DNA from: a virus
Length of the DNA: 23,010 nt
Virus record (IMG/VR): IMGVR_UViG_3300030101_000795
Location: 1-23,010 of that record
Reading direction: 5' to 3' (one strand)
Below are positions 3,440 to 14,401 of the stretch, in pieces. Position numbers and translations under genes: made by a program. Position 1 is the first letter of the stretch; each line of letters starts with the position of its first letter. The notes beneath the pieces are model-generated. The model worked only from the letters and a program-made list of their open reading frames with translations. It was not told the DNA's origin and made no database searches.

Positions 3440-3650
3440 GGTCTTCTTCGTCTAATGTATTTGACTTAAACTGAGTATGTTCGTTGGCAATAACATATTT
3501 AATAACACCGTTTACTTTTTGCTCAAGATCATGACCACAATTTACACATCTGTATAAATATGGTTCAAAAGAAACAAGAAGAGTTTCTGATTTACACTCT
3601 GGGCATTGTCCTGTTACGATTTGTGATGTTAATGTTCCTATTCTAGCCAT
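3432..3650 (-). CDS. Zinc-ribbon protein
   Basis: 72 aa. CPEC (16-19) and CVNC (35-38) knuckles, 15 residues apart, form a classic zinc ribbon with strands between (TLLVSFEPYLYR). The C-terminal half (EQKVNGVIKYVIANE) has no known domain. Such stand-alone ribbons bind nucleic acid or act as adaptors on host RNA polymerase or other proteins; which applies here cannot be told. It overlaps the M15 peptidase gene upstream by 13 bases and the basic 44-aa gene downstream. Confidence 0.75.
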   Translation of the reverse strand: MARIGTLTSQIVTGQCPECKSETLLVSFEPYLYRCVNCGHDLEQKVNGVIKYVIANEHTQFKSNTLDEEDHG

Positions 3651-4108
3651 GGTTTGTATACGACTTTACCATCTTCCCTCATGGCACGCAATGATTGGTT
3701 TCTATTTGCGTTAGTCGAATACGAACAATGTATCCACCCTGATGATGGTTCGTTGTCGCGGTAAAATTCTAAGATGAGCTGGTCATACTCAAGTTCATTC
3801 TTGATCCATGTTGCGAGCTCCCTGTTGTCCACACCAGGTATCTCAAAGTCTGCTGCAGCTGCACTGTCGTCTGCCACGTGCTGACTGTTCACACTGCTGC
3901 CTATTTCTACACATAGCTGTGCGCATCTAAAACCAGAGGATATAATTAATGGTCTATCAAAGTGTGAGCGAACCGGTTGCAGTATATTCACTGCTAATGC
4001 TTTTAAATTCTCAATTTGTTGTGGATTAGGATTATTGTTTATACCTTTTCTCTCCGCAACCTGAGACTTTGTTAACTCATCAAGAGTTATGTTAGCTGTA
4101 AGTTTCAT
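3638..4108 (-). CDS. M15 peptidase, putative endolysin
   Basis: 156 aa, similar to the M15 (D-Ala-D-Ala carboxypeptidase/endopeptidase) family that cuts peptidoglycan cross-links. Visible family features are SSGFRC (57-62), NSQH (74-77), AADFEIPG (85-92), the DQLILEF strand (109-115) and GWIHCSY (124-130). The expected zinc ligands are His77, Asp87 and His127. The His-to-Asp spacing is 10 residues instead of the usual 7, and the glycine of HxxGxAxD is missing, so activity is less certain. No signal peptide is visible, so release would need a holin; tiny hydrophobic genes lie directly upstream, the nearest overlapping this ATG by ATGA. The middle of the gene is richer in G+C than its neighbours. 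Confidence 0.85.
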   Translation of the reverse strand: MKLTANITLDELTKSQVAERKGINNNPNPQQIENLKALAVNILQPVRSHFDRPLIISSGFRCAQLCVEIGSSVNSQHVADDSAAAADFEIPGVDNRELATWIKNELEYDQLILEFYRDNEPSSGWIHCSYSTNANRNQSLRAMREDGKVVYKPWLE

Positions 4109-4197
4109 AATTTGTCGTTATCTTTTAACCCTACATAAATCACAACGCAAAGCAAGACAAAAGCTATTAGTGTATTTATAGGAAAAAATGGCTCCAT
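4105..4197 (-). CDS. 30-aa single-pass membrane peptide
   Basis: A micro-gene beginning MEPFFPINTLIAFVLL, with a hydrophobic stretch of about 17 residues and the charged end KDNDKL, so one membrane span. Its stop overlaps the start of the M15 peptidase (ATGA), and its start overlaps the stop of an 18-aa hydrophobic frame (TAATG). GGGAA lies about 11 bases upstream. Position next to the endolysin suggests a holin, anti-holin or other lysis role, but single-span 30-aa peptides are too small to assign by sequence. It could also be a translational coupling device. Confidence 0.5.
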   Translation of the reverse strand: MEPFFPINTLIAFVLLCVVIYVGLKDNDKL

Positions 4198-4253
4198 TAT
4201 TCAGATATTCCCATTAGCCATAGCATTAAAAATATATAACAGATGGGTTCCAT
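4197..4253 (-). CDS. 18-aa hydrophobic micro-ORF
   Basis: An 18-codon frame, MEPICYIFLMLWLMGISE, fully hydrophobic between residues 4 and 16. Its ATG overlaps the stop of the 4253..4462 gene as TAATG, and its own TAA overlaps the next ATG as TAATG. The first three residues (MEP) match those of the following 30-aa peptide. No independent ribosome binding site is visible, so it would depend on termination-reinitiation. It may be a real membrane peptide, a decayed duplicate or only a coupling bridge. Confidence 0.35.
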   Translation of the reverse strand: MEPICYIFLMLWLMGISE

Positions 4254-4462
4254 TATGGTAATATTTTAACAATTTTTTTTCGATCCATGTATACTTCTGT
4301 TTGAGCATTTACTTTCTTACAAGTAAATACAACTCTCTCAGGATTGACCTCGTTCTGCGCGATCCGCTTTGATTTCAAACAATCGCTGAGGTTGTTTTTG
4401 TATACATGCTCTATCATATTTCCGTTTAATGTTAAGATAAGTGCAAATACAGTCTCTATCAT
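4253..4462 (-). CDS. Small exported-type two-cysteine protein
   Basis: 69 aa with a hydrophobic start (residues 1-12) and two cysteines, Cys28 (LSDC) and Cys48 (VVFTC), then a basic C-terminus. It shares with the proteins at 2554 and 2857 the order leader, xxxC, variable linker, aromatic-x-C. GGAAGG lies about 6 bases before the ATG, and the ATG overlaps the stop of the 55-aa gene upstream (ATGA). It heads the small membrane-peptide/endolysin cluster, so an envelope role is plausible. Function unknown. Confidence 0.7.
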   Translation of the reverse strand: MIETVFALILTLNGNMIEHVYKNNLSDCLKSKRIAQNEVNPERVVFTCKKVNAQTEVYMDRKKIVKILP

Positions 4463-4626
4463 CTTACTACCTTCCCTCTGTTTGGTCCGTATTTAATTCT
4501 GTACTTATGTGTACCTGTGCCATTTATATCTACTTCTTTTTTGAGATCTTTGACATAGCTCATTTGCTTTGCCTTTTTCTCCATATCAGAGATATAATCT
4601 AAAATTTTTCTAGTGATTCGATCCAT
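4459..4626 (-). CDS. 55-aa hypothetical protein
   Basis: 55 codons, starting MDRITRKILDYISDMEKK and ending in a basic HKYRIKYGPNRGKVVR. The N-terminal half is predicted helical and charged, and the C-terminal half is strand-like around a GTGTHKYRIKYG turn. There is no cysteine or membrane segment. It overlaps the coiled-coil gene upstream by 17 bases and the next gene downstream by ATGA, so it fits the continuous coupled series. I do not recognise a family. Confidence 0.7.
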   Translation of the reverse strand: MDRITRKILDYISDMEKKAKQMSYVKDLKKEVDINGTGTHKYRIKYGPNRGKVVR

Positions 4627-4999
4627 TTCTAATTAGTTTCTCCACATCTTCAGTTAACTTCTCTGTTCTTTTCTTTAAAAATTCTATGTTAACAGCGTTG
4701 TTTCTCATGCCTTTAATCTCTGCTTCTACATCTTCTAATAAACCACTAACGTGCTCTACAATCATAAAAAGTTCTGCTTCTCCAGCTGATTGACCTAACT
4801 CACCTCTTGGATATTTAATTCTAAACTCTGAGTTAGCTTCTAAATCTTTTTGCATCAACTCTATTTGAGTTGAGTGTTGATTAAGTGTTTCCTGTACTCC
4901 AAAAAAAGCCCAGGTCCCGATGGCGACCATCGCGATCAAACTAGCAACCGTCTTCATTGGCATTTGTACGGATGCGGATTCAGAAATTTTTAGGGCCAT
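4610..4999 (-). CDS. Membrane-anchored coiled-coil protein
   Basis: 129 aa. A hydrophobic helix near residues 15-35 (core VASLIAMVAIGTWAFFGV) is followed by a long charged helix, with heptad-like spacing from NQHSTQIELMQKDL to the C-terminus and a short break at FRIKYPRGELG. This predicts one membrane anchor with the coiled coil on one side. It is a common unnamed type in marine phages. Its place between the Trp-rich peptide and the M15 peptidase cluster would suit a spanin-like or holin-associated role, but no lipobox or partner is visible. The start is 3 bases after the upstream stop, without a clear ribosome binding site. Confidence 0.72.
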   Translation of the reverse strand: MALKISESASVQMPMKTVASLIAMVAIGTWAFFGVQETLNQHSTQIELMQKDLEANSEFRIKYPRGELGQSAGEAELFMIVEHVSGLLEDVEAEIKGMRNNAVNIEFLKKRTEKLTEDVEKLIRNGSNH

Positions 5000-5002
5000 A
5001 AA

Positions 5003-5104
5003 TTACTTATAGAAACCTTTAAAGATCCAATTGACCCATTTGTTCCATAGTCCTTTAATCCAATTCCAGACTTTACAACAAACGTTTTTACATTGTTCAA
5101 TCAT
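5003..5104 (-). CDS. 33-aa Trp-rich cationic amphipathic peptide
   Basis: A 33-codon gene with a strong ribosome binding site (GAGGAG, 7 bases before ATG) inside the end of the 216-aa gene; the two overlap by 8 bases. The peptide has Cys5, Cys9 and Cys10, then Trp at 13, 15, 20, 23 and 26 plus Phe28, Phe31 and Tyr32. It has six Lys and one Glu. On a helix, Lys11, Asn14, Gly18, Asn21, Lys22, Asn25 and Lys29 fall on one face and the Trp/Ile/Leu/Val residues on the other. That is the layout of an interfacial, membrane-active peptide. It could aid lysis, disturb the host membrane or bind a membrane protein. No known family is recognised. Confidence 0.68.
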   Translation of the reverse strand: MIEQCKNVCCKVWNWIKGLWNKWVNWIFKGFYK

Positions 5105-5747
5105 GTTTCTTCTCCTCAATTTCGTAGAAGAACCTATCAGTATCTTCAGTCTTCCACTTGCTTGTGTTCTCTACGTTCCACTCAGATGTTTGCACTTTCC
5201 ATTTAGGTATCTCATCTTTCACTGTGAAGGACGGTATATCCCAAATGCATCTATTGTTAGGTTGTGCTGCATAGTTCCCATCATCGAGAGCTATGATGTG
5301 AGCACATTTATGCTCGTGCGGAATCTCTGAATGGTCCGTATCTAGAATATTAGGCTCTGGATGAGCAAAGTCAACAGTAAATAAGTATTTACCAGGGTGC
5401 CATTTTTTGTCTTTTCCAATGTATTTACCGGCTTGTGCTTCTAGAATATCCCAAGAATGAACAGAAGGATAATAACTAAAACAATTCCATAACTGTAACT
5501 CATCAAGTCTACGCTTAGGAACGTCCTCTGGCTTAAAGCCTCTTTGAATGAACGCAGTAATTGGTAGACGGTAGAAGATCGCACCATTTTCCATAATGGC
5601 ATGAAAAAGAAGAGACTTGCCCGTAATGGAACTAATACCAAAGATAATACAATCCTCAACTTCACCATGATGACTCTTAAGATCATATAAGAATTCTCTC
5701 CTTATTTGAGCATACTCTACAGGAATGTTTGCATTTAAATAAGCCAT
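5097..5747 (-). CDS. Conserved phage hypothetical protein (216 aa)
   Basis: 216 aa, starting MAYLNANIPVEYAQIR. It has several His, Trp and Cys residues (KSHHGEVEDC, HEHKCAHII, NNRCIWDIP) but no clear metal site. The segment FGISSITGKSLLFHAIMENGAIFYRLPI is sheet-like. The C-terminal region is Trp- and charge-rich (PKWKVQTSEWNVENTSKW). I know this beginning from marine phage genomes, where it follows DNA polymerase and has no assigned function. Here it starts 9 bases after the polymerase stop, with GAGGT upstream, so it is probably expressed with the replication genes. Confidence 0.75.
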   Translation of the reverse strand: MAYLNANIPVEYAQIRREFLYDLKSHHGEVEDCIIFGISSITGKSLLFHAIMENGAIFYRLPITAFIQRGFKPEDVPKRRLDELQLWNCFSYYPSVHSWDILEAQAGKYIGKDKKWHPGKYLFTVDFAHPEPNILDTDHSEIPHEHKCAHIIALDDGNYAAQPNNRCIWDIPSFTVKDEIPKWKVQTSEWNVENTSKWKTEDTDRFFYEIEEKKHD

Positions 5748-12779: not shown

Positions 12780-14210
12780 ATGAAATATAAATTTCAAACT
12801 AAGCCGTATGCGCACCAATTAACTGCGTTGGAAAAATCTTGGAACAGAGATACGTTCGCATATTTTATGGAAATGGGTACTGGCAAAACAAAGGTACTAA
12901 TAGATAATTTAGCCATGCTTTACGACAAAGGTAAAGTAGATGGTGCACTAATAGTGGCACCTAAAGGTGTTGTAGGGACTTGGTACAATCAAGAGTTGCC
13001 TACACATCTACCGAATCACATAGAAAATGTGACCGTATTATGGCAATCAAACATTAACAAAAAACAGCAGGATAAACTAGACCAACTGTTTAAAACGGGT
13101 CAAGATTTACATGTATTAATAATGAATGTTGAGGCTTTCAGCACTGATAAGGGATTGTACTTTGCTAAAAAATTTTTACGTTCACATAAATCTCTAATGG
13201 CCATAGACGAATCAACCACAATTAAAAACCCAAAAGCAAAAAGAACTAAAAATATTTTGGAACTAACTAACCTCTGTAAGTACAGAAGGATAATGACAGG
13301 CTCTCCTGTAACAAAAAACCCATTAGACTTATACACACAATGTTATTTTTTAGATCCTTTTCATTTAAATCACGAATCATATTATTCTTTTAGAATGAGG
13401 TATGCTGTGATGAAGACAGCTCACATATCTGGTAGGTCTATACAACTGGTGACAGGTTTTAAAAATCTAGCAGAGTTGTCTGATAAATTAAAACCTTTTT
13501 CATACAGAGTATTGAAAGAAGATTGTTTAGATCTACCGAGTAAAATTTACATGAAAAGAGAAATACAATTAACAGCAGAACAGAAAAAACTATACGAACA
13601 AATGCGTAAAGAAGCTTTAGCTACATTAAATGGAAAAACTGTGACTACTATGACAGCTCTAACACAGTTAATGAGATTACATCAAATAACTTGTGGTCAT
13701 TTTTCTGCAGATGATGGAACAATACAAGAGATTAAAAATAACAGACTTGCAGAATTGTTAGATGTGTTAGAAGAAGTAGAAGGCAAAGCTATTATATGGG
13801 CTCACTATCAACATGATGTTAAAAATATCTTTAAATTATTAGAGGACAAATATGGTCAGGGTTCCGTGGTCCATTATTATGGCAAGACGCTGCCTGATCA
13901 ACGGGACTATGCTATACGTAATTTTAAAGATAATGACAAGGTAAGATTCTTTGTAGGCACACCACAAACAGGTGGTTACGGTATCACGTTAGTGCAAGCT
14001 AATACTGTGATTTATTACTCTAATGGATATGATCTTGAAAAAAGAATGCAATCAGAAGACAGAGCACACAGAATAGGGCAAAAGAAAGTAGTGACATACG
14101 TAGATATTATAGCTGAAGATACTGTAGATACAAAAATTGTAAAGTCTCTTCGTAAAAAGATTAATATTGCATCTAAAGTTATGGGTGAAGAATTAAAGTC
14201 TTGGATTTAA
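12780..14210 (+). CDS. SNF2-family helicase/translocase
   Basis: 476 aa, a complete superfamily 2 motor. Motifs are the Q-like PYAHQLTALEK (9-19), Walker A MGTGKT (32-37), DEST (143-146, motif II), TGSP (173-176, motif III), the lobe-2 IIWAHYQHDV, a GTPQTGGYGITLVQANTVIY region (V) and QSEDRAHRIGQ (VI). The RAHRIGQ signature is typical of SNF2 proteins. It lacks the accessory domains of chromatin remodellers and matches compact phage versions that act in replication or recombination by moving on DNA. It is alone on the plus strand, with its own promoter overlapping the leftward one, and its stop overlaps the stop of the convergent 64-aa gene. No clear ribosome binding site is visible. Confidence 0.95.
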   Translation: MKYKFQTKPYAHQLTALEKSWNRDTFAYFMEMGTGKTKVLIDNLAMLYDKGKVDGALIVAPKGVVGTWYNQELPTHLPNHIENVTVLWQSNINKKQQDKLDQLFKTGQDLHVLIMNVEAFSTDKGLYFAKKFLRSHKSLMAIDESTTIKNPKAKRTKNILELTNLCKYRRIMTGSPVTKNPLDLYTQCYFLDPFHLNHESYYSFRMRYAVMKTAHISGRSIQLVTGFKNLAELSDKLKPFSYRVLKEDCLDLPSKIYMKREIQLTAEQKKLYEQMRKEALATLNGKTVTTMTALTQLMRLHQITCGHFSADDGTIQEIKNNRLAELLDVLEEVEGKAIIWAHYQHDVKNIFKLLEDKYGQGSVVHYYGKTLPDQRDYAIRNFKDNDKVRFFVGTPQTGGYGITLVQANTVIYYSNGYDLEKRMQSEDRAHRIGQKKVVTYVDIIAEDTVDTKIVKSLRKKINIASKVMGEELKSWI

Positions 14211-14401
14211 ATTATAAATCTTTCTAATAATAGTATGGCTACGGACCCCACCGCAGCTAAAAGAACCCAATAGATTTTGTCTATCTTGCCACCCAATTCG
14301 TGAATACCTTTGTGCATGTGATTAATGTTCTTTTTAACACCTGATATGTGTCCATACAGGGATACAATATGTTCTCTAGTAGTTTTGGGTTCCATAGCCA
14401 T
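14207..14401 (-). CDS. XhlA/holin-like small membrane protein
   Basis: 64 aa. A charged N-terminal helix (KTTREHIVSLYGHISGVKKNINHMHKGI with the continuing ELGGKIDKIYW) is followed by one C-terminal membrane span (VLLAAVGSVAILLLE). This order, amphipathic or coiled-coil helix then a single span, fits haemolysin XhlA-type proteins, which work with holins in lysis. The similarity is by pattern only. It starts by a TAATG overlap with the end of the 1262-aa gene (a second ATG is 6 bases further in) and ends on a stop that overlaps the stop of the SNF2 gene. Being the last gene of the virion module suits a late-expressed lysis accessory. Confidence 0.72.
   Translation of the reverse strand: MAMEPKTTREHIVSLYGHISGVKKNINHMHKGIHELGGKIDKIYWVLLAAVGSVAILLLERFII

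Follow-up and report, generated by a model that had tools for sequence, protein, structure and literature searches.

A short, overlooked gene for a Trp-rich, cationic, amphipathic peptide of 33 residues (MIEQCKNVCCKVWNWIKGLWNKWVNWIFKGFYK) lies on the minus strand at 5003–5104 of the window, the 23,010-nt stretch of viral DNA analyzed here, and stands in a slot whose neighboring genes remain constant while the peptide is exchanged. An earlier note on this DNA had proposed that the peptide could be a lysis factor, a host-membrane effector or an inhibitor of a membrane protein. Among these options a lysis or envelope factor appears to fit best, and the reading that we favor – tentatively, placing it a little short of an even chance – is that of a membrane-active factor of the lysis cassette, which would be disruptin-like in action without being a homologue of phiKT gp28. 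The source of the DNA is a marine phage that probably infects SAR11 bacteria; the nearest annotated relatives of the window are pelagiphage HTVC027P and the genome 023Pt_psg01, with about 66–67% DNA identity in parts of the polymerase region.

The reading frame is a gene under purifying selection

The peptide gene begins with an ATG at 5104 and its stop codon ends at 5003. The ATG shares 8 bases with the end of an upstream gene encoding 216 aa (5097–5747, minus strand), and 3 bases separate the stop from a downstream gene encoding 129 aa (4610–4999, minus strand). Seven bases before the ATG lies a GAGGAG Shine-Dalgarno sequence (5112–5117, minus strand); both this distance and the 3-base spacing had been given correctly in the earlier note. 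The Shine-Dalgarno sequence falls within the final codons of the upstream gene, where it doubles as two Glu codons. At these codons GAG is used by 92/95 (97%) and 71/95 (75%) of relatives, compared with a share of 32% over the remainder of the upstream gene, and because GAG is favored over GAA precisely here, the Shine-Dalgarno site itself is evidently selected.

Relatives were collected by two flank-anchored searches – one via the 129-aa gene and one via the 216-aa gene, not via the peptide. A scan with a DNA pattern for the Trp motif added 62 IMG/VR contigs, and the enlarged set comprised 36 distinct 33-codon genes; loci fetched in this way are biased and were tallied separately from the flank-anchored loci. 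Among the 36 same-length relatives, with residues of the search motif excluded, dN/dS is 0.155 (bootstrap 0.132–0.182), and every one of the 36 is interrupted by stops in forward frames +1 and +2. Families of the same type found solely via the flanking genes gave ratios of 0.12–0.37, with shifted frames at 0.58 or above; the smallest family (four sequences) was disregarded in these controls, its extreme +2-frame ratio being a product of near-zero synonymous change. More generally, a short ORF nearly always follows the 216-aa gene, and the two overlap by about 8 bases, from the ATG of the ORF to the stop of the gene.

The alternative, a chance ORF with a coincidental Shine-Dalgarno sequence, draws on the fact that short ORFs are common and that this ribosome binding site overlaps upstream coding sequence. 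It is nevertheless ruled out by the selection tests: given a dN/dS of 0.16, a frame kept in dozens of relatives, stops in the other forward frames and the preference for GAG, we assign it a negligible probability, and the 33-aa ORF is a genuine gene. The earlier claim that the frame is really translated thus gains the backing of purifying selection, which emerged from the comparison of synonymous and non-synonymous change in relatives that the note had proposed; loss of the frame beside conserved flanks, or frequent stops within it, was also looked for, and what was found did not overturn the claim. Profile searches of the peptide against Pfam and PHROG returned no match.

The peptide is predicted to form an amphipathic helix

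The composition of the peptide is as first described: five Trp fall within 14 residues (positions 13, 15, 20, 23 and 26), the charged residues counted comprise six Lys and one Glu, and three Cys occupy positions 5, 9 and 10. AlphaFold2 models MIEQCKNVCCKVWNWIKGLWNKWVNWIFKGFYK as a single helix spanning residues 2–31 (mean pLDDT 80), and its amphipathic moment of 0.71 exceeds that of shuffled sequences (P = 0.005–0.006); together the model and the moment support the cationic amphipathic helix suggested previously. The peptide lacks a membrane-spanning stretch (its best 15-residue hydropathy is 0.22). A holin identity for MIEQCKNVCCKVWNWIKGLWNKWVNWIFKGFYK was rejected on this ground; the single-transmembrane peptide that can occupy the same slot (below) does have such a stretch.

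These properties extend to the 65 distinct Trp-containing slot peptides (class A), which average 28 residues in length, carry a mean charge of +5.3 (range +2 to +10), contain 10.6% Trp and have a mean moment of 0.66; in 71% of them the moment surpasses that of their own shuffles at P<0.05. Class A peptides are modular. Some have a CKN[IV]CC segment and others lack it, and KGFYK, SRFNR, FTAGLDK and WQK recur as C-terminal modules. Within the CKN[IV]CC subfamily C5, C9 and C10 are invariant (35/35 distinct proteins), an invariance that is partly built in, since the pattern by which the subfamily was picked includes the Cys. Because many relatives keep the helix without any of the 7-residue Cys module (for example MIKKIWNKIKDLWNKWVNWIFKGFYK), the three-Cys module is an optional part of the peptide. 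The Cys cluster singled out by the earlier note as a possible attachment to a partner or metal is therefore a constant of one subfamily and not a general feature.

In L131, L145, L158, L163 and HTVC027P gp12 (L002 6066–6224) the Trp-rich helix is fused to a zinc-ribbon-like module rich in Cys and His. The order is reversed in HTVC106P gp36 and HTVC121P gp52, where the helix comes first and a Cys tail follows.

The slot is conserved and its occupant is exchanged

A census of the slot was made from 73 loci found via the 216-aa gene and having readable sequence behind it. The slot is filled in nearly all relatives, and the occupant varies: 50 loci have a cationic amphipathic peptide that contains Trp, and 13 have a single-transmembrane peptide of 33–34 aa (MIDKIKSKAMHYWANHKIESLVFIVLVAALIIK type). 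In six of the remaining ten a Cys-rich module is joined to the Trp-rich helix. The single-transmembrane peptide is unrelated to the Trp-rich helix and reaches a 15-residue hydropathy of at least 2.65. Exchange is evident even between very closely related viruses: the upstream proteins of L151 and L150 are 98.5% identical over 200 residues, and the slot holds MIKKIWEKIKSWFWTRD in L151 but a single-transmembrane peptide in L150. Since the two kinds of peptide alternate in this manner, membrane action would be the simplest property common to both.

Replacement of alleles at a locus that is itself nearly fixed is also typical of diversifying pressure, as would be expected of a host-directed effector or a superinfection-exclusion peptide whose swaps reflect an arms race with the host or with competing phages. 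Each subfamily is, however, under purifying selection, and an effector leaves the co-location with endolysin and coiled-coil genes unexplained; we consider this explanation quite improbable.

The gene that follows the peptide is usually one of two coiled-coil proteins with an N-terminal transmembrane (TM) segment, and all 62 contigs recovered by the Trp motif have the peptide adjoining phrog_3704 (the family of the 216-aa protein), a TM coiled-coil gene, or both. In rearranged clusters (for example L179–L181, L189, L214, L216 and L227) the peptide directly precedes one or other of the two coiled-coil genes, which are unrelated to each other. This arrangement gives rise to the main rival of the lysis-stage disruptor, namely that the adjacent coiled-coil protein has in the helix or TM peptide a small, non-disruptive membrane subunit by which it is recruited or regulated. 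That two unrelated coiled-coil families are both preceded by a peptide, and that the helix also occurs joined to Cys-rich modules, would suit such a subunit. Yet the peptide is also retained at the phrog_3704 end where other small genes come next, and conservation of the coiled-coil protein is strong despite exchange of the peptide, a pattern not usually seen in binding partners. We judge a subunit role to be rather unlikely.

Neighboring genes

The 216-aa upstream protein (phrog_3704) is annotated as PurM or ferredoxin in relatives; these labels were not relied upon, Pfam having given no match. The 129-aa protein (phrog_20984) is the membrane coiled-coil protein that had been noted downstream of the peptide: its model (pLDDT 68) predicts an N-terminal TM helix running into a helix over residues 15–62, a linker, and a second long helix over residues 72–127, and the linker is the most conserved part of the protein. 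In many relatives the coiled-coil gene is followed by a gene for a 55-aa basic protein (4459–4626, minus strand), and a 69-aa protein with a hydrophobic N-terminus (phrog_24646; 4253–4462, minus strand) is a regular neighbor. An endolysin gene of the Peptidase_M15_3 type, identified by profile match to PHROG family phrog_894, occupies 3638–4108 (minus strand). Its start is overlapped by 4 bases by an unannotated 30-aa ORF with a single TM segment (MEPFFPINTLIAFVLLCVVIYVGLKDNDKL; 4105–4197, minus strand), a type (MEPF.P.NT.IAF.LLCVVIYVGL) kept in 13 of 60 distinct M15 contexts and possibly representing a holin-like micropeptide.

The M15 endolysin lies within 2.5 kb and on the same strand in 19/31 long contigs, and so, with the coiled-coil neighbors, the company of membrane and lysis-type genes reported earlier is borne out. 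It is absent within 2.5 kb in the other 12/31, and in 023Pt it is found at the opposite end of the map; these cases speak against a disruptor.

The second N-terminal-TM coiled-coil family is that of HTVC027P gp13 (L002 5745–6056) and occurs also in L003 and L232. It has weak PHROG matches to holin and hemolysin families (phrog_1296, E = 4.5e-4; phrog_1193, E = 1.2e-4) and to spanin families. The holin and hemolysin matches, together with the single-transmembrane alternative in the slot, are what would be expected if the peptide were a holin-like or holin-modulating factor acting at the inner membrane through depolarization or timing. Against this, MIEQCKNVCCKVWNWIKGLWNKWVNWIFKGFYK does not span the membrane, PHROG matches of this kind are prone to arise from coiled coils (spanins are among them), and another HTVC027P protein, encoded elsewhere in the genome, is predicted to have two TM segments. 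A holin-like function therefore appears improbable.

Directly 5′ of the coiled-coil gene in L025, L035, L139 and L148 are single-TM proteins of 45–47 aa with a Pro-rich tail of the PPPKPK type. The tail is reminiscent of the proline tail of Rz1, and the proteins are without a canonical lipobox.

A possible role in lysis

Phage phiKT is listed as spanin-less (PMC6139136) and uses a short amphipathic peptide, the disruptin gp28 (56 aa), encoded between endolysin and holin (Holt et al. 2022, described in PMC12819732). The peptide described here resembles gp28 in being a short, cationic, amphipathic helix without signal sequence encoded near an endolysin gene. It differs in being Trp-rich and shorter and in its location between phrog_3704 and a TM coiled-coil gene; by the same measure gp28 is the less amphipathic of the two. 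Smith-Waterman comparison of the peptide with gp28 was unremarkable against half-preserving shuffles (P = 0.68), and across the slot peptides P<0.01 was reached in just 2 of 19, so that similarity overall is not significant. By eye the single-TM slot peptides are tempting as gp28 homologues; this too was set aside, the shuffles giving no overall support.

Lambda Rz1 and T7 18.7, as controls, were both picked up by a scan for lipobox ORFs. The same scan found nothing in HTVC027P, and in HTVC121P, Skadi-1 and 023Pt its matches were short ORFs of a chance type, of which nearly all begin with GTG or TTG; in the 23-kb window, which is a genome fragment, it gave nothing beyond one match on the opposite strand. 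Because no credible lipoprotein was found in four related pelagiphage genomes, these phages seem to be without o-spanin or u-spanin. In lambda Rz the order of elements is TM, CC1, linker, CC2 (PMC6139136), and the 129-aa protein, to judge from its predicted topology, shares the outline (though only the outline) of the i-spanins lambda Rz and T7 18.5: an N-terminal TM segment followed by a pair of long helices with a linker between them. Unlike them, it has no lipoprotein partner that we could find and its linker is the most conserved part, in a model of limited confidence.

The disruptor is favored because an endolysin is often near, the neighbor looks Rz-like, no lipoprotein is found and the contents of the slot suggest membrane action. 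Its mode of action might be as follows. The peptide gene would belong to a late or lysis-type cluster of HTVC027P-like pelagiphages, and its product, a helix of ~30 residues in which Trp, Ile and Phe line one face and Lys the opposite one, would bind membranes in the plane of the bilayer and build up in the cell. After the inner membrane has been breached and the wall cleaved by the M15 endolysin, the peptide could reach the envelope, where it would permeabilize or disorder membranes, the outer membrane above all, and so finish lysis in phages without a recognizable spanin. Here we infer the membrane binding, the timing and the outer-membrane target. Several considerations weigh against a disruptor: it is not evident how the single-TM occupant of the slot would target the outer membrane; the fusion of the helix to Cys-rich modules points to an anchoring function rather than to killing; and marine hosts may need no disruption of the outer membrane, an argument made for cyanobacteria (PMC6139136).

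A broader version of the idea is that pelagiphages disrupt the envelope without lipoproteins, by means of a conserved inner-membrane coiled-coil protein and a freely exchangeable, membrane-active micropeptide (of the Trp-rich helix, TM or Cys-module-helix type) that replaces the o-spanin and whose type is swapped among close relatives as a cassette. We regard this as a long shot.

Whether spanin-less phages carry disruptins, and how these might be found, is a stated open question (PMC12819732). Here one fixed gene position provides a large set of candidates that vary naturally and are short and synthesizable, and the question is therefore directly testable. Analysis of gene slots can, moreover, find short genes that similarity searches miss.

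Relatives and distribution

Tblastn of the peptide against 50,697 phage records gave chance-type matches or none, and hence no detectable relative among cultured phages. Scanning bacterial genomes with the motif produced five matches in unrelated bacteria, about the number expected by chance for a 64-fold degenerate 21-base pattern in 257 Gb. Large catalogues of phage small genes have reportedly been assembled (Fremin et al. 2022, cited in PMC11364881), and single members of the peptide family may already be listed in such catalogues; in the papers searched there was no description of this slot or of the exchange of its peptides.

Five pelagiphage peptides – HTVC027P gp12, 023Pt URG13058.1, Skadi1_38, HTVC121P gp52 and HTVC024P gp33 – share the slot or the downstream coiled-coil families. 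They are 33–52 aa long, amphipathic or single-TM, several have Cys clusters, and they are annotated throughout as hypothetical or transmembrane. Their sequences are unrelated except for short MIxK-type starts, and none has the helix of MIEQCKNVCCKVWNWIKGLWNKWVNWIFKGFYK. In T7-like HTVC121P the coiled-coil gene comes after genes for a membrane protein (phrog_2524) and for an amphipathic peptide of 39 aa bearing a Cys-Lys tail, and the cassette sits between tail-type genes and terminase genes. The holin and spanins of T7 are likewise encoded in the region between tail and terminase genes, and this arrangement speaks for a lysis role.

Trp-rich antimicrobial peptides, the subject of a review (PMC6017362), are similarly cationic, Trp-rich and amphipathic; the present peptide differs in being phage-encoded, cytoplasmic and unmodified, and its activity is putative.

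Elsewhere in the window (14207–14401, minus strand) a 64-aa protein with a C-terminal TM segment, for which no confident family match was obtained, adjoins a gene for 1262 aa and has a counterpart in HTVC027P gp86. The proteins labeled "peptidase M15" in HTVC024P and Skadi-1 (L007 3898–4329 and L232 2809–3240) have two predicted TM segments each; they look like membrane proteins of a holin-like kind rather than M15 peptidases, and the annotation may be wrong.
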